64,000 nt of DNA from Parvibaculum sp. (GTDB lineage: Bacteria > Pseudomonadota > Alphaproteobacteria > Parvibaculales > Parvibaculaceae). Made by a program: the position numbers and the translations under genes. The notes beneath the pieces were generated by a model. It was not told where the DNA came from, did no database searches, and worked only from the letters and a program-made list of their open reading frames with translations. Shown one piece after another: positions 17,841 through 25,125 of this stretch (positions within the stretch are counted from its first letter, which is position 1; each line of letters begins with the position of its first letter). The stretch lies in NCBI RefSeq assembly GCF_030694575.1, contig NZ_JAUYUS010000123.1:1-64000 (forward strand), in the 5' to 3' direction.

Positions 17841-17855
17841 GGGGAGGCCGATCTG
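17841..17855 (+). promoter_or_regulatory. ribosome site pointing to a CTG start for galT
   Basis: GGGGAGG at 17841-17847 lies five bases before an in-frame CTG at 17853. No ATG, GTG or TTG is available in the galT frame between this site and the conserved zinc-binding cysteines. A weak TATAGT at 17820-17825 would start the transcript just upstream. A sequencing error hiding a normal start is the main alternative. Confidence 0.5.
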
Positions 17856-18902
17856 TACACGCTGAGGGAACACCGTCTGCCGGGCGGCCGGGACCTGCTG
17901 CTCTACGGCCGCGCCGTTCATGACGAGGCACCCGGCCTGGCGCTCCCGGCGGAGCCGTCCGGCGCGGAGCCTCATCTGCGGTGGCACCCGCTGCAGGGCG
18001 AATGGGTCGCCTATGCGGGGGCGCGGCAGGCGCGGACCTTCCTGCCGGAGGCGGCCGCCTGTCCGCTCTGCCCGGCGAAGGAAGGACGGCTGGGCGAAAT
18101 TCCCTTTACCGGGTTCGAGGTGGCCGTGTTCGAGAACAGGTTTCCGGCCTTGGCCGCGGCCTCCGCCGCGCCGGTGCTGGCGAGCGTCGAAACGGCACCG
18201 GCGGCGGGGCGCTGCGAAGTCGTCGTCTTCTCCGCCGATCATACCGGCGGGCTCGGCAGTTTTTCGCTCGACCGGCTGGCGCTGTTGATCGAGGTCTGGG
18301 GCGCGCGGGTCGAGGCGCTCGGCAAGACCTATCCCTACATCCTTCCCTTCGAGAACCGGGGCGAGGAGATCGGCGTCACGCTGCATCATCCGCATGGGCA
18401 GATCTATGCCTTTCCCTTCGTGCCCGTGCGTGCCGCCCGCGCGGCCGGCGCGCAGGCGGAAGCGCCTGTCGTCGCGCGGCTGATCGAGACCGCCGACTCT
18501 GCGCTCGTGCTCGACGATGACGGCGAGGCGCTGGCATTGGTACCGCCCTTCGCGATGTATCCCTATGAGACCTGGATCGTGCCGCGCCGGCGGGTGCCCG
18601 GTCCCGCGGCGCTTCGCCCGTCCGAGATCGAGGCGATGGCGCGCCTGCTTCGCCGCGGCGTGCGCCGCCTCGACGGACTTTTCGGCAGGCCGATGCCCTA
18701 TATCCTCATCGTCCAGACGGCGCCGCGCGGCTTCGAAAACAGTTTCCACATGACGATCGAAATCCGTCCCTTCCTTCGCGACGCGAACAAGCTCAAATAC
18801 CTGGCGGGCGTCGAGCAGGGCTCCGGCGTCTTTCTCGTCGATGTGCCGCCGGAGCTTGCGGCGGAGCGGCTGCGGGCGGTTTCGCCGGGCGGTGAGGCGT
18901 GA
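17853..18902 (+). CDS. galT: galactose-1-phosphate uridylyltransferase
   Basis: 349 residues if started at the CTG at 17853, close to the usual 345-350. CPLCP (Cys70, Cys73) is the N-terminal zinc site, and HPHGQ (His179-Gln183) is the active site, with His181 as the uridylylated nucleophile. A later SFHMTIEIRP segment fits the family. The enzyme exchanges UMP between UDP-glucose and galactose-1-phosphate, giving UDP-galactose. The open frame extends far upstream antisense to the phosphotransferase gene, but that part is not GalT-like. Its stop overlaps the galK start. Confidence 0.88.
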   Translation: MYTLREHRLPGGRDLLLYGRAVHDEAPGLALPAEPSGAEPHLRWHPLQGEWVAYAGARQARTFLPEAAACPLCPAKEGRLGEIPFTGFEVAVFENRFPALAAASAAPVLASVETAPAAGRCEVVVFSADHTGGLGSFSLDRLALLIEVWGARVEALGKTYPYILPFENRGEEIGVTLHHPHGQIYAFPFVPVRAARAAGAQAEAPVVARLIETADSALVLDDDGEALALVPPFAMYPYETWIVPRRRVPGPAALRPSEIEAMARLLRRGVRRLDGLFGRPMPYILIVQTAPRGFENSFHMTIEIRPFLRDANKLKYLAGVEQGSGVFLVDVPPELAAERLRAVSPGGEA

Positions 18903-19948
18903 GGGAAATCTTCAGCGGGATATTCGGCCGCGACGCGGTGGCGGAAGCCTCGGCGCCCGGCCGCGTCAATCTCATCGGCGACCACACGGATTATGCGGAG
19001 GGCTTCTGCCTGCCGATGCCGCTCGCGCTCGAAACGCGTGTGGCGATGGCGCCCGCGCCGGCTTTCCGCGCGCATAGTCTCGATCTCGACGAGACGGCGC
19101 CGTTCGATCCCGCCGCGACCGCGCGTGGCGACTGGACGGATTATATCGCGGGTCCGCTTGCCGAACTCCTGCAGGCGGGTTTCGCCATTCCGCCCGTCGA
19201 GGTGCTGGTCAGTTCCGACGTGCCGCAAGGGGCGGGCGTCTCGTCTTCGGCCGCGCTCGAGGTCGCCACGTTGCGCGCGGCGCTGATGCTGACCGGCGCC
19301 CATCTGCCGGACGTGGAAGTGGCGCGGCTCGCGCAATCCGCCGAGAACGCCTATTGCGGCGTCCAATGCGGCATTCTCGACCAGATGGCGAGCGCCGTGG
19401 GCCGTCCGGGTCAGGCACTGCTTCTCGATTGCCGGAGCAACGATACGCGCCTCGTGCCGGTCCCGCCTGAATTTCATTTCGCCGTCATACATTGCGGCGA
19501 GGCCCGGCGGCTTGTCGATGGCGCTTATAACGAACGCCGCCGTTCGGTCGAGGAGGCCGCGCGGCTCCTCGGTATCGCTTCGCTGCGCGATGCAGTCCCG
19601 GCCGATCTTGCCGCGCTTTCCGATCCGCTGATTCTCAAGCGCGCGCGTCACGTCGTCGGTGAGAATGCGCGGGTAACGGCTGCCGTGGCGGCGCTCGAAA
19701 TGCGCGACCTGCGCGGCTTCGGCTCCTTGATGACGGAGAGCCATCGTTCGCTTGCGGAGGATTTCGAGGTATCGACGCCGGCACTCGACCGTCTGGTCCG
19801 GGACGCGCTCGATGCCGGTGCGTTCGGCGCGCGGCTCACCGGCGCCGGTTTCGGCGGATGTATTGTCGCGCTGCTGCCGGCCGGACGGGAGGTGTGGTGG
19901 AAACGGGTTGCCGCGGGCAATCCCGCTGCCTGGCTCGTACAGGCCTGA
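18899..19948 (+). CDS. galK: galactokinase
   Basis: 349 residues. APGRVNLIGDHTDY near residues 19-32 is the galactokinase signature, GAGVSSSAALE is the GHMP phosphate-binding loop, and GAGFGGCIVAL is the third conserved motif. It phosphorylates galactose with ATP. The GTG start overlaps the galT stop (GTGA), so translation is coupled. With galT it makes UDP-galactose. No galE epimerase or sugar transporter accompanies the pair. It is convergent with the PAP2-DUF368 gene, six bases apart. Confidence 0.93.
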   Translation: MREIFSGIFGRDAVAEASAPGRVNLIGDHTDYAEGFCLPMPLALETRVAMAPAPAFRAHSLDLDETAPFDPAATARGDWTDYIAGPLAELLQAGFAIPPVEVLVSSDVPQGAGVSSSAALEVATLRAALMLTGAHLPDVEVARLAQSAENAYCGVQCGILDQMASAVGRPGQALLLDCRSNDTRLVPVPPEFHFAVIHCGEARRLVDGAYNERRRSVEEAARLLGIASLRDAVPADLAALSDPLILKRARHVVGENARVTAAVAALEMRDLRGFGSLMTESHRSLAEDFEVSTPALDRLVRDALDAGAFGARLTGAGFGGCIVALLPAGREVWWKRVAAGNPAAWLVQA

Positions 19949-19954
19949 CGGAGA

Positions 19955-21658
19955 TCAGCCGGCGGCCGTCCCGTTCTCTTCCGCATGCTGCGCCAGCCGG
20001 TCGAGAAGCCTGTAGAGGAAAGCGCCCGCGAAGATCGCCGCGATGCCCAGCGCCACGGTGAGGTCGACATTCATCGGGACATAGGGATGCGCCGCGACGA
20101 GGCGCGCCTTCTCGCCGATTATTTCGTACTCGCGATCCTTGAACGGCCACACGGCAAGCAGCGAGCCGCCAAGCACGCCGATCACCGTCAGCAGCGTCTT
20201 CTGGTAGAAGCGGTCAAGCAGCCACGAGATGGCGCGCGAAAAAGTAAGGGCGCCGACAACGACACCGGTCCCAAGCGGCAGCAGGAAGCCGAGGTCCAGC
20301 CGGCCGAGCGCGTCGATGGCATCGGTATATTTGCCGAGGATCAGCAGCACGAAAGAGCCCGAAATGCCCGGCACCAGCATGGCGGCGACCGCGACCATGC
20401 CGCACAGGAAAATGAACCACGCGGCGTCCGGCGTCTTCACCGGGACAAGGATGGCTGCGAACAGACCGAAGCAGATGCCGAGCGCGATCCATGCCCAGCT
20501 TCCAGGGCCGCGTATGTCGACATGCGAGAGCAGGCCCACGATGGAGGCTGCGATCAGTCCGAAAAAGAAGCCGAAGGTCACTTCGGGAAACTCCGCGACC
20601 AGCAGCGACAGCGGCACGATACGGCTGAAGATGATGAGCGAAAGCACCACGCCGATACCGAGCGGCAAAACGAACATGAAGTCGATGTGGCGCGCGGCGG
20701 CGAGGAATTGCCGGCGCATGAGAAGGTTCAGCATTTCCTTGTCGATATGGGCGATGGCGCCGATCAGGCGTTTGTAGATGCCGAGAATGAGTGCCATCGT
20801 GCCGCCGCTGACACCCGGTACAAGGTCGGCGGCGCCCACGCACATGCCGCGCAAGACCTGCCGCGTCGGATTGGGATTGTCGTGGCCCTCGGGGCTCAAC
20901 TCCGCGACGAAGCGTTGCCAGTGCGAGATCGTCCAGTCGGTCGGTCGCAGCGCCGCCCGGTATATCCACCATGCGACCGGCGTACCACTGGTTAGTGCCA
21001 GCGCCAGTATCGCGATTGCGCCGCCGCCGATCAGGGCATCTGTCGGCCAATGCGCACCCGCTGCTATGGGCGGCAGCACGCACAGGAGAGCAAGCGCGGC
21101 GCCTGCCAGGCCGAGACGCCATGTGAAGCCGCGCCACCAGAGAACCGCCAGAACGATCGTCGCGGTCATCCAGTTGTCGGCCGAGCTGGAGGCGGATCCT
21201 TCTCCTGCCATCGACCAGGGCACCAGCGCCTTGATCGAATGATAGCTGTCGAGAGCAAGAGAGGGAGAGGGGCGCGAATAGGCGACAAGCTCCTGCAGCA
21301 CGACCGCTGCGAGCACCAGGATCGCGGTGAGGACCGCGAATGCGGCACCGTGCCGGAAGCGCGCAAGGTCCGCGCGTCCGATGAAATAGAAATAGACCGC
21401 GAGAATCGTCACCAGCAGGAAGGGACCGAATTGCCGTCCGCCCGTCAACGCCCAGAAGACGGCAATGCGCTCGTCCCGCGCGACTGTGCCGTTGATGGCC
21501 CGGAAGACTGCAACATCGAAGATGTCCCAGTAGCCCCGCGTCGGCTGAAAGAGCCATGATGCGACGAGAAGAAGAGCGGCGGCGGTCCAGCCCAGAAGCG
21601 GTTTCCACTGCCATTCCTTCGACAGGGGAAAGTCGCTCAGGTTCTTGTTTGGCGCCAT
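19955..21658 (-). CDS. PAP2-like / DUF368 fusion membrane protein, putative undecaprenyl-phosphate translocase
   Basis: 567 residues from the ATG at 21658 (GGAGA upstream). Residues 1-235 resemble a PAP2 phosphatase: SRP at 128-130 and AHWPTD at 202-207 match motif 1 and the His-x3-Asp of motif 3. Motif 2 (PSGH) is replaced by SSSADN at 157-162, motif 1 Lys by Gln122, and motif 3 Ser-Arg by Pro-Pro at 196-197. Residues 262-560 form a complete DUF368 domain with paired motifs ADLVPGVSGGT (278-288) and LVPGISGSF (428-436). DUF368 proteins have been shown to translocate undecaprenyl phosphate. The fusion suggests carrier-lipid recycling, with a doubtful phosphatase activity. Confidence 0.8.
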   Translation of the reverse strand: MAPNKNLSDFPLSKEWQWKPLLGWTAAALLLVASWLFQPTRGYWDIFDVAVFRAINGTVARDERIAVFWALTGGRQFGPFLLVTILAVYFYFIGRADLARFRHGAAFAVLTAILVLAAVVLQELVAYSRPSPSLALDSYHSIKALVPWSMAGEGSASSSADNWMTATIVLAVLWWRGFTWRLGLAGAALALLCVLPPIAAGAHWPTDALIGGGAIAILALALTSGTPVAWWIYRAALRPTDWTISHWQRFVAELSPEGHDNPNPTRQVLRGMCVGAADLVPGVSGGTMALILGIYKRLIGAIAHIDKEMLNLLMRRQFLAAARHIDFMFVLPLGIGVVLSLIIFSRIVPLSLLVAEFPEVTFGFFFGLIAASIVGLLSHVDIRGPGSWAWIALGICFGLFAAILVPVKTPDAAWFIFLCGMVAVAAMLVPGISGSFVLLILGKYTDAIDALGRLDLGFLLPLGTGVVVGALTFSRAISWLLDRFYQKTLLTVIGVLGGSLLAVWPFKDREYEIIGEKARLVAAHPYVPMNVDLTVALGIAAIFAGAFLYRLLDRLAQHAEENGTAAG

Positions 21659-21731
21659 GCGTCGTCTCCGGTGGGAGGAATCACGCGATTCTATATTCGC
21701 GGGCCGGAAATGACACCGAAATCGGCTTGCG

Positions 21732-23045
21732 TCACCGGTAGGCGGGCAGCCGGTCGCCATGCGCCTCGATCAGGTCGTCGACGAGCGCCCATATCTGGTC
21801 GAGCGAAAGTTCCGCCGCCGTGTGCGGGTCCATCATGGCGGCATGGTAGATATGTTCGCGCTTGCCGGTGGCGATGGCTTCCATCGTCAGCGATTGCACA
21901 TTGATGTTGGTCTGCATCATGGCGGCGAGATGCGGCGGCAGTGCGCCCACCCGCGTCGGCGTCACGCCGTTCGCATCGACGAGGCAGGGTACCTCCACGC
22001 AGGCGCCCGCCGGCAAATTGTCGATGAGGCCGTTATTGGCGACATTGCCGTTGATGACGGTCGGTTTGCCCGACACGACCGCGCGCATGATCTTTGCGCC
22101 GTACTCGCCGGAGAACTTCACCTCCAGCCGGTTCGCCGACACGAGTTCGCGCTCCTGCGCTTCCCAGGCCGCGATCTGCTCCTCGCAGCGGCGGATATAT
22201 TCGTCGAGCGGAATGTTGAACTTCTCTATCAGGTCGGGCCGGTCGCGCTTGATGAACCACGGCACATATTCGGCGAAGTGCTCGCTCGATTCGGTTACGA
22301 AATAACCGGTCCGGCGGAGGATTTCGTAGCGCACCTTGTTCCAGCCCGGTTCCTCGTCCCTCGCCGCGATTTCCTTCAGCTTCGGATAAAGGTCTTCGCG
22401 CGTGCCGTCCTCGCGTTCGCGTTCGAACTTCGTATAGAAGGCCATGTGGTTGATGCCGGCGCATTGGTAACGCAGCGACTTGTAATCGACATCGAGGTCC
22501 TTCGAGAGTTCGTAGGCCGTGCCCTGTACCGAGTGGCAGAGGCCGACATGGTCTATGTCGGGCGCCAGCCGGTTCAGCGCCCAGCAGTTGATCGCCATCG
22601 GATTCACATATTGCAGCATCAGCGCCTTCGGGCAGAGCTCGCGCATGTCCTTCGCGATATCGAGCAGCACGGGCACGGTGCGCAGCCCGCGCATGATGCC
22701 GCCAACGCCGAGCGTGTCGGCGATGGTCTGGCGCAGGCCGTATTTCTTCGGAATTTCAAAGTCGGTGACGGTGCCGGGCTTGTAGCCCGCGACCTGGATC
22801 ATCACGATCACGAAGTCGGCGCCCGTCAGCGCCTCGCGCCGGTCGGTCGTCGCCGTGATCGCCGGGGAGACGGAGAGCGCATCGGCGATTTTCCCTGCCA
22901 CGATGGCGGAGGTTTTCAGCCGCGCCTCGTCGATGTCGTGGAGAGCGATTTCGCAATCCGCGAACATCTCGTTCAGCAGGATGTCGCCCACCAGATTTTT
23001 CATGAAGACGGTGCTGCCCGCGCCGATCATGCAGACTTTGGTCAT
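21732..23045 (-). CDS. GH4 alpha-glucosidase/alpha-galactosidase
   Basis: 437 residues from the ATG at 23045. MIGAGSTVFMKNLVGD is the NAD-binding N-terminus of glycoside hydrolase family 4. NPMAINCWAL, GLCHSVQGTAYEL and AGINHMAF hold the Cys and His residues that bind the catalytic manganese. GH4 enzymes cleave alpha-galactosides or glucosides by an NAD-dependent redox-elimination route in the cytoplasm. The sequence is closest in feel to the MelA/AglA group, so alpha-galactosidase is likely given galTK nearby. It is divergent from the GH42 gene, which starts 97 bp away. No transporter is adjacent. Confidence 0.87.
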   Translation of the reverse strand: MTKVCMIGAGSTVFMKNLVGDILLNEMFADCEIALHDIDEARLKTSAIVAGKIADALSVSPAITATTDRREALTGADFVIVMIQVAGYKPGTVTDFEIPKKYGLRQTIADTLGVGGIMRGLRTVPVLLDIAKDMRELCPKALMLQYVNPMAINCWALNRLAPDIDHVGLCHSVQGTAYELSKDLDVDYKSLRYQCAGINHMAFYTKFEREREDGTREDLYPKLKEIAARDEEPGWNKVRYEILRRTGYFVTESSEHFAEYVPWFIKRDRPDLIEKFNIPLDEYIRRCEEQIAAWEAQERELVSANRLEVKFSGEYGAKIMRAVVSGKPTVINGNVANNGLIDNLPAGACVEVPCLVDANGVTPTRVGALPPHLAAMMQTNINVQSLTMEAIATGKREHIYHAAMMDPHTAAELSLDQIWALVDDLIEAHGDRLPAYR

Positions 23046-23142
23046 GTCGTTTCCCCTTTTTGGCGGGGCCAGCATTGGACATGAGGGGCGCTCTTGCAAG
23101 CGCCCGCATTTCCGGCAATCTGGCGGGAGAGAGGGAGGAACC

Positions 23143-25125
23143 ATGCCGCAAGCCCAAGGCCCCACCGACGTCTCCATCGGCGTCTGCTACTACCCCGAGC
23201 ACTGGCCGGAGGCCATGTGGGCGGAGGATGCGCGGCACATGCGCGAGGCGGGCATCTCCCGCGTCCGCATCGGCGAATTCGCCTGGTCGCGGCTGGAGCC
23301 GGAACCTGGAACCTGCGATTTTGCCTGGCTCGGCCGAGCGCTCGACACGCTGCATGGCGAGGGGCTTCAGGTCATCCTCGGCACGCCGACGGCGACGCCG
23401 CCCAAGTGGCTGGTCGATTCGATGCCCGACATGCTGCCGGTGGACAGGCATGGGCGGCCGCGCGGCTTCGCGTCGCGCCGTCACTACTGTTTTTCCCATG
23501 CGGGCTACCGGCGCGAATGCGCGCGCATCGTCAGGGCGCTGGCGGAGGCGTTCGGGCAGCATCCCGCCGTCGTCGCCTGGCAGACCGACAATGAGTATGG
23601 CTGCCACGATACGGTGCTTTCCTATTCCGACGAGGCGAGGCTCGGCTTCCGCCACTGGCTGAGAGATCGCTACGGTTCGGTCGCCGCGCTCAACGAGGCA
23701 TGGGGCAACGTCTTCTGGAGCATGGAATACCGGAGCTTCGAGGAGATCGACCTGCCGGCAGGCACCGTCACGGAGGCGAACCCCGCGCACCGGACGGATT
23801 TCCACCGCTACTCGTCGGACCAGGTCGCGGCCTTCAACCGCGTGCAGACGGACATCCTCCGCGCGCTGTCGCCCGGCCGCGACATTCTCCACAACTTCAT
23901 GACCTTCTTCCTCGACTTCGACCACTTCGAGGTGATGAAGGATCTCGATATTGCGACGTGGGATTCCTATCCGCTGGGCAGTCTCGACGTCTTCCCGGGC
24001 GATGCCGCCTACAAGGCCGCCTTCATGCGCACGGGCGATCCCGACCTGCAGGCCTTCCATCACGATCTCTATCGCGGTGCCGGGCGGGGCCGCTTCTGGG
24101 TGATGGAGCAGCAGCCCGGCCCGGTGAACTGGGCACAATACAACACCGACGCGCTGCCCGGTCTCGTCCGCCTCTGGGGCATGGAGGGCTTCGCGCATGG
24201 CGCGGAAACGATCTCCTATTTCCGCTGGCGGCAGGCGCCCTTCGCACAGGAGCAGTTTCACGCCGGGCTCAACCTGCCGAACGGCGAGCCGGACCGCGCC
24301 TTTCACGAGGTGAAACAGCTCTCGGCGGACCTGGCCGCGCTCGGCCCGCTCGGCGCGCCTATATCAGCCCGCGTGGCGCTCATCTTTTCCTACGAGGCGG
24401 CGTGGTTCCTGCGCGTGCAGCCGCAGGGCCGCAATTTTTCATACGTGGAGCAGGTTTTTGCGATGTATCGCTCGCTCCGCCGTCTCGGGCTCGATGTCGA
24501 TGTGGTCGGTCCCGACGCCGATGTGAGCGGCTATGCGCTTGTCCTCGTTCCCTCCATGCCGCATGTGCCGGACCGTCTTGCCGCGTCGCTCGCCGCCTGC
24601 GAAGGAACCCTCCTCGTCGCCGCGCGCAGCGGCAGCCGCACCGCCGCTCACCGGATCCCCGATAACCTCGCGCCGGGCATCCTTGCCGGCCTTCTCGGCA
24701 TCAAGGTGACGCGCGCCGAGAGCTTCCGGGCCTACGGCGCCGTCTCCGTCCGCTATGACAACGAGGCGCACCGGTTCGACCGGTGGCGGGAATTTGTCGT
24801 GCCCGCCTCCGGCACCGAGGTTCTGGCGGAAACGGAGGACGGGCATCCCGCGCTCACCCGCAAGGCCCGCGCGCATTACCTCGCCGGCTGGCCGGACGAT
24901 GCCTTCCTCGACCGTCTCGTCGAGCGTCTTGCCCGCGAGGCGGGGCTTGCCGTTCTCGACCTGCCGGCCGGCCTGCGCACGCGGCGGCGGGGGCCTTACC
25001 GCTTCGTATTCAACTACGGGCCAGTGCCTGCCGACATCTCGCCTCATTTCCCGGCTAGGGAAGTCGTGCTCGGGCAGCCGCTGCTCGACGTCGGCGGCGT
25101 CGCGGTTCTGCATACGGACGTTTAG
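23143..25125 (+). CDS. GH42 beta-galactosidase
   Basis: 660 residues. The ATG at 23143 follows a strong GGAGGAA site. The TIM-barrel start (GVCYYPEHWPEAMW) is typical of family 42. Glu151 in QTDNEYG is the acid/base and Glu322 in WVMEQQPGPVNW is the nucleophile. An amidotransferase-like trimerisation domain and a small C-terminal domain follow. No signal peptide is seen, so it acts on imported beta-galactosides. It shares a divergent 97-bp region with the GH4 gene and should release galactose for galK and galT. Confidence 0.92.
   Translation: MPQAQGPTDVSIGVCYYPEHWPEAMWAEDARHMREAGISRVRIGEFAWSRLEPEPGTCDFAWLGRALDTLHGEGLQVILGTPTATPPKWLVDSMPDMLPVDRHGRPRGFASRRHYCFSHAGYRRECARIVRALAEAFGQHPAVVAWQTDNEYGCHDTVLSYSDEARLGFRHWLRDRYGSVAALNEAWGNVFWSMEYRSFEEIDLPAGTVTEANPAHRTDFHRYSSDQVAAFNRVQTDILRALSPGRDILHNFMTFFLDFDHFEVMKDLDIATWDSYPLGSLDVFPGDAAYKAAFMRTGDPDLQAFHHDLYRGAGRGRFWVMEQQPGPVNWAQYNTDALPGLVRLWGMEGFAHGAETISYFRWRQAPFAQEQFHAGLNLPNGEPDRAFHEVKQLSADLAALGPLGAPISARVALIFSYEAAWFLRVQPQGRNFSYVEQVFAMYRSLRRLGLDVDVVGPDADVSGYALVLVPSMPHVPDRLAASLAACEGTLLVAARSGSRTAAHRIPDNLAPGILAGLLGIKVTRAESFRAYGAVSVRYDNEAHRFDRWREFVVPASGTEVLAETEDGHPALTRKARAHYLAGWPDDAFLDRLVERLAREAGLAVLDLPAGLRTRRRGPYRFVFNYGPVPADISPHFPAREVVLGQPLLDVGGVAVLHTDV

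Follow-up and report, generated by a model that had tools for sequence, protein, structure and literature searches.

We analyzed a window of 64,000 nucleotides from a Parvibaculum sp. genome (contig NZ_JAUYUS010000123.1, positions 1 to 64,000), in which one gene encodes a PAP2-fold domain joined to a DUF368 domain. We favor, with fair rather than high confidence, the reading that this protein, called copy A, is an undecaprenyl-phosphate (C55-P) flippase of the DUF368/PopT type that carries an N-terminal pseudoenzyme derived from LpxT, and that an ancestral bifunctional LpxT–PopT protein was duplicated. The fusion, the homology of its halves, the states of their motifs, their evolutionary rates and the copy number were read from the genomes.

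Architecture of the fusion gene

The domains are arranged in one uninterrupted frame of 567 residues, the PAP2 fold first and a complete DUF368 domain after it. The features are the following.

19955–21658, minus strand: coding sequence of the LpxT-like–DUF368 fusion (copy A), 567 aa and a stop, ATG at 21658; open frame, full-length orthologues in 15 further Parvibaculum genomes
21666–21669, minus strand: probable ribosome-binding site GGAG, 7 bases 5' of the ATG, read from the sequence
20924–21658, minus strand: LpxT-like PAP2-fold half, residues 1-245, from blastp to E. coli LpxT and a PAP2 fold match
21263–21277, minus strand: motif-1 region, S128-R-P-S-P132; R129, S131 and P132 kept, one residue deleted just 5'-ward, before R129
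21170–21187, minus strand: motif-2 region, residues 158-163; SSADNW against SFPGDH in LpxT, His lost
21038–21073, minus strand: motif-3 region, residues 196-207, PPIAAGAHWPTD; R197 lost (PP for PR), H203 (LpxT H190) and D207 kept
20117–20839, minus strand: DUF368/PopT domain (PF04018), residues 274-514; 254 bits, 2e-75
20798–20818, minus strand: DUF368 core motif 1, PGVSGGT (281-287), with D278 just before it; PGVSGGT in 33/33 stand-alone members and 14/14 copies A, altered in 5/5 copies B
20357–20371, minus strand: DUF368 core motif 2, PGISG (430-434); G434 in 33/33 stand-alone members and 14/14 copies A, Ala in 5/5 copies B

In the alignment the start methionine of copy A is the same as that of its orthologues. 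The AlphaFold2 model of copy A (pLDDT 88.5, pTM 0.84) contained a PAP2 fold spanning residues about 20-240. A fold search with this model aligned the N-terminal half with LpxE (6ebu; Z 12.0, 160 residues) and with a PAP2 phosphatase (5jki; Z 12.0, 186 residues). The same search gave no clear known fold for the DUF368 half, for which a whole-model search is a poor test, and no solved structure matching copy A was found by sequence search. The first-pass annotation, made from the DNA sequence of the window, had described a PAP2-like domain fused to a complete DUF368 domain; the open frame, the PF04018 match and the modelled PAP2 fold bear this out.

The PAP2 half is LpxT-type

We compared the N-terminal halves with E. 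coli proteins by blastp. The half of the window copy was homologous over about 210 residues to LpxT (YeiU, C55-PP:lipid A 1-phosphate phosphotransferase, PMC2229476), with E = 6e-13 and 25% over 214 residues, and sibling halves matched LpxT along its length (up to 8e-29). YbjG and PgpB matched the N-terminal halves weakly, around the motifs, and an UppP/YbjG/PgpB-type identity was rejected in favor of LpxT. Intact copies share 74 invariant columns, and E. coli LpxT is identical in 40 of them. No PF01569 (PAP2) match over the cut-off was obtained for the window copy; the paralogue described below, copy B, matched this model at 34-38 bits. The NCBIfam ybjG model gave about 1e-3 to 1e-4 on siblings, far under its cut-off. 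By these comparisons the PAP2 half is a relative of LpxT and is not UppP/PgpB-like. LpxT transfers phosphate in the periplasm from C55-PP to lipid A and leaves C55-P (PMC2229476), and C55-P is the substrate of DUF368 proteins (Sit et al. 2022, PMC9876793). The fusion is therefore chemically sensible.

The LpxT motifs served as the yardstick for the active site: motif 1 lacks the Lys, motif 2 is SFPGDH and motif 3 is PR-x3-GAHW-x2-D. The latter two are common to E. coli LpxT and the intact siblings of the fusion. Active E. coli LpxT itself has no motif-1 Lys, PR in place of the motif-3 Ser, and SFPGDH instead of PSGH; the substitution H190A inactivates it (PMC7356881). The earlier reading of the motifs consequently stood in part. 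As it had said, SRP, His203 and Asp207 remain, motif 2 is lost and Pro stands for the motif-3 Arg; the motif-1 Lys and the motif-3 Ser, which it had listed as losses, are absent from the active E. coli enzyme and are thus family features. What is truly lost is F159-P-G-D-H163, R197 and one residue ahead of R129. The set of three PAP2 catalytic motifs is thereby incomplete: equivalents of E. coli LpxT H150 (motif-2 His) and R184 (motif-3 Arg) are absent and those of H190 and D194 are kept, as is W204. Among sites conserved in intact copies, the window copy kept 19/19 in the N-terminal third versus 27/40 in the catalytic core.

Since SFPGDH and the motif-3 Arg are lost, the LpxT half of the window copy is predicted to be inactive, in agreement with the earlier view that the PAP2 half is catalytically impaired; in having neither the motif-2 His nor the motif-3 Arg, and in being fused to a flippase, it differs from E. 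coli LpxT. Residual or altered chemistry may persist, as H203, R129 and D207 are kept. An alignment of the PAP2 half to a family with a different intact active site had been named as evidence against the earlier reading. The half does belong to such a family, LpxT, with an active site that is intact in siblings and broken in the window copy.

The DUF368 half and the paralogue copy B

Copy A passed the PF04018 gathering score easily (26 bits required), and it did not reach the NCBIfam equivalog cut-off for named PopT proteins (209.7 and 106.3 bits; cut-off 400 bits). Judged by these scores, its DUF368 half is a divergent member that does not correspond directly to the named proteins. We compared the DUF368 core in 33 stand-alone members, 14 copies A and 5 copies B. 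D278 was kept in 31/33 stand-alone members and 14/14 copies A, and S372 in 32/33 stand-alone members. All core residues were kept in copy A, which confirms the earlier statement that the domain is complete. In this the window copy resembles the DUF368/PopT flippases VCA0040 and S. aureus PopT; it differs from them in scoring under the equivalog cut-offs and in that DUF368 is always fused to LpxT in the Parvibaculaceae.

A second LpxT–DUF368 fusion, copy B, was observed in the same genome (G000:C1:24565-26196, L002; L185:8527-10260), 48% identical to copy A. Its LpxT motifs are intact and its DUF368 core, otherwise invariant, is altered: D278Q, S372A and G434A were present in 5/5 copies B compared and V283A in four. 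The DUF368 half of copies B is under purifying selection (omega 0.12-0.24), and therefore may not be dead.

Several further genes were observed around copy B. A stand-alone LpxT-like gene lies directly 3' of it in three genomes (L044:2355-3152, L047:5734-6525, L042:3228-4091); it branches with copy B, whose LpxT half was probably duplicated in tandem to produce it. Two conserved small genes of the same strand without a Pfam match lie just 3' of copy B (L185:7642-7980 and L185:7078-7632), and the product of the former has repeated GHGTRDA segments. Between copy B and uvrB there is an AT-richer gene for a P-loop ATPase-like protein (L185:10844-12523). Its GC content by codon position is 0.53/0.36/0.45 versus 0.69/0.46/0.87 for copy B, and it looks recently acquired.

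Active-site loss in the orthologues

We recorded 16 copies A, five with intact LpxT motifs and 11 with incomplete ones, and seven intact copies B; with three stand-alone LpxT genes beside copy B, 15 sequences kept all LpxT motifs. Different residues were lost in different copies A. H163 is replaced by R in G023, G009 and G005, together with R197 by Q or H, and H203 is replaced by E in G008, G024, G010, G011 and G021. D207 was lost in two broken orthologues. The trees demand at least three, probably four, separate inactivations of the LpxT half, because the intact G016 sits amid broken relatives and the clades share no single inactivating change. Four of the broken copies A have a copy B partner and seven do not, so the losses do not follow the presence of copy B. 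In several of these genomes there is neither a copy B nor any other LpxT relative, so redundancy with copy B cannot explain every loss.

Evolutionary rates of the two halves

Separate branch lengths for each half fitted better than shared ones (lnL = -11238.3 vs -11381.5, 42 extra parameters, a gain of 143 log units; AIC = 22729 vs 22931). The LpxT half was about 3-15 times longer than the DUF368 half on most of the long branches that lead to broken copies A. The window's own tip was an exception, with no acceleration (0.17 vs 0.17, ratio 0.97); in its lineage the acceleration lay on deeper branches, e.g. the stem shared with G013 (0.15 for LpxT vs 0.06 for DUF368). On the stem of copies B it was the DUF368 half that was longer (0.83 vs 0.51).

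For the LpxT half, omega was 0.29 (0.21-0.38) in the window/G013 pair (DUF368 half, 0.15), 0.11-0.12 in two intact copy A pairs, 0.39 and 0.46 in other broken pairs, and 0.11, as low as in intact copies, in the broken pair G011A/G021A; several dS values exceeded 0.8, and the omegas of those pairs are rough. As the value of 0.29 is above that of intact copies and still well below 1, constraint on the LpxT half is, by this measure, relaxed and not absent. The G011A/G021A value is a hint that the half is conserved for a non-catalytic role and not just passively retained.

Distribution and origin

Full-length copies of the fusion were present in 16/27 Parvibaculum genomes, so the earlier proviso that it might be unique to this genome did not apply; within our search it is confined to one genus. 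All 23 of the 23 DUF368 domains found in the family Parvibaculaceae lie within such fusions, all inside Parvibaculum. We did not observe the fusion in about 760 further genomes outside Parvibaculum (samples of 385 from the class and 398 from the phylum). The 62 named DUF368 loci from outside Parvibaculum showed none either, and the long frames at L159, L054, L056, L062, L107, L110 and L051 contained no PAP2 domain. The sampled genomes of the class yielded no further DUF368, and the nearest stand-alone relatives were mostly gammaproteobacterial (46-49% identical). From these two observations we infer that the domain was likely acquired laterally and then fused.

Neighborhood and other carrier-lipid proteins

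The copy A locus is conserved, lying beside mltB and a block of ATP-grasp, alpha-E and transglutaminase genes in all 10 relatives checked. In the window (17841-25125) the fusion is surrounded by galT, galK, GH4 and GH42, which form a galactoside module gained or lost among relatives. At this locus galTK, GH4 and GH42 are absent in 5/10 relatives, so the neighbors are uninformative on function. The first-pass annotation had taken the galTK and exopolysaccharide neighborhood as backing for a carrier-lipid role; we rejected this line of support, as the module is not conserved at the locus. The carrier-lipid role itself is supported as likely.

The genome of the window encodes one BacA and three VTT-domain proteins, which best match COG0398 or COG1238 members. 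Judged by the best E. coli match, neither this genome nor any other fusion carrier with VTT matches had a UptA-type (COG0586) DedA; among genomes without the fusion, a small sample, 3/11 had one. Given this absence, copy A may be the main C55-P flippase of a known type in the genome. A VTT (DedA-like) domain was also seen in a long frame with a phospholipase D-like 5' part (G000:C107:48045-48395, L171), and equally long frames with a VTT match are found repeatedly in Parvibaculum.

Proposed mechanism and alternatives

The ancestral form of the fusion is still intact in sister species. In it, the LpxT half would remove a phosphate from C55-PP at the periplasmic face, with lipid A as the acceptor if the activity matches that of E. 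coli LpxT, and the DUF368 half joined to it would carry the resulting C55-P back inward. Duplication of the fusion gene would have produced copies A and B. Copy B would have retained the LpxT motifs while its DUF368 core was altered; copy A would have retained the DUF368 core and lost LpxT catalysis in several lineages. Two reasons would explain why the inactive half persists: it probably still folds with the transporter or packs against it, and it is N-terminal, where a frameshift or a stop would destroy the flippase. Both activities, the link between them and a structural part played by the inactive half are our inference.

The inactive half could instead be a passive relic that decays freely and persists merely by preceding the flippase in frame. 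The repeated loss of different catalytic residues and the bursts of change on branches to broken copies speak for it. We nevertheless regard it as unlikely, because most broken pairs have omega values far under 1 (0.11-0.46), the N-terminal third is nearly unchanged in the window copy and the AlphaFold2 model of the LpxT half is confident.

The first-pass annotation had proposed a sensor or substrate-capture domain, binding C55-PP uncleaved and gating or feeding the flippase. Purifying selection on the half and the retention of H203, R129, S131, P132, W204 and D207 in the window copy agree with such a role. The pocket, however, is not conserved in broken orthologues, which lost either the motif-2 His with R197 or H203 (to Glu), and D207 in two cases. 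The intact N-terminal third beside an eroded catalytic core is the opposite of what a binding pocket predicts. As different residues were lost at least three times, and the half evolved several times faster on most branches to broken copies, we consider a conserved pyrophosphate sensor improbable.

It is very unlikely that the half is still an enzyme, with a changed pocket that carries out another or a slower phosphotransfer through H203 and D207. In favor of this, the nucleophile-position His and the Asp are kept in the window copy and five other broken copies. Against it, the motif-3 Arg, the general-acid His and the FPGD around that His, which E. coli LpxT and the intact siblings all have in common, have been lost. 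An assembly or frameshift artefact joining two genes, which had been named as a possible undoing of the earlier reading, can be dismissed together with pseudogene status, since independent assemblies (16 genomes, two paralogous groups, among them the single-contig 3.9 Mb genome G013) carry the same fusion without internal stops.

Relation to known systems

The idea of an undescribed architecture is not supported, as PAP2-DUF368, DUF368-PAP2 and DUF368-BacA proteins were already reported by Sit et al. 2022 (PMC9876793). Like the window protein, their dual-domain proteins from several microorganisms include PAP2 followed by DUF368 in one polypeptide, and Parvibaculum may already be among their species. 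The available part of that paper does not mention the LpxT type, impaired copies or duplication of the PAP2 half. DedA-PAP2 fusions, e.g. P. aeruginosa PA4011 (PMC12893004, PMC10127716), likewise combine a domain of a C55-P flippase family with a PAP2 domain, but the flippase family is another one and the domain order is reversed. What appears new here, from sequence comparison, is that the PAP2 half is of the LpxT kind, that its active site was lost repeatedly inside a single genus, and that a paralogue shows the reverse pattern.

All cell-envelope glycans are supplied through C55-P recycling, where the question at stake is how dephosphorylation is coupled to inward flipping. The fusion ties DUF368 specifically to an LpxT-type enzyme, linking carrier recycling with lipid A modification. 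A wider reading, to which we give a rather low probability, is that the LpxT–PopT fusion links the phosphorylation of lipid A and the recycling of the carrier in one molecule, and that the copies specialized reciprocally after duplication, copy A as a flippase with a gating or docking pseudo-LpxT and copy B as an LpxT with a pseudo-flippase that delivers or removes the carrier. Parvibaculum offers a comparative set of intact fusions, dead-enzyme fusions, altered-flippase fusions and tandem stand-alone LpxT. If the coupled and then specialized reading were true, this set would be a natural series in which the working of a coupled enzyme–flippase, and its breakdown, could be followed.
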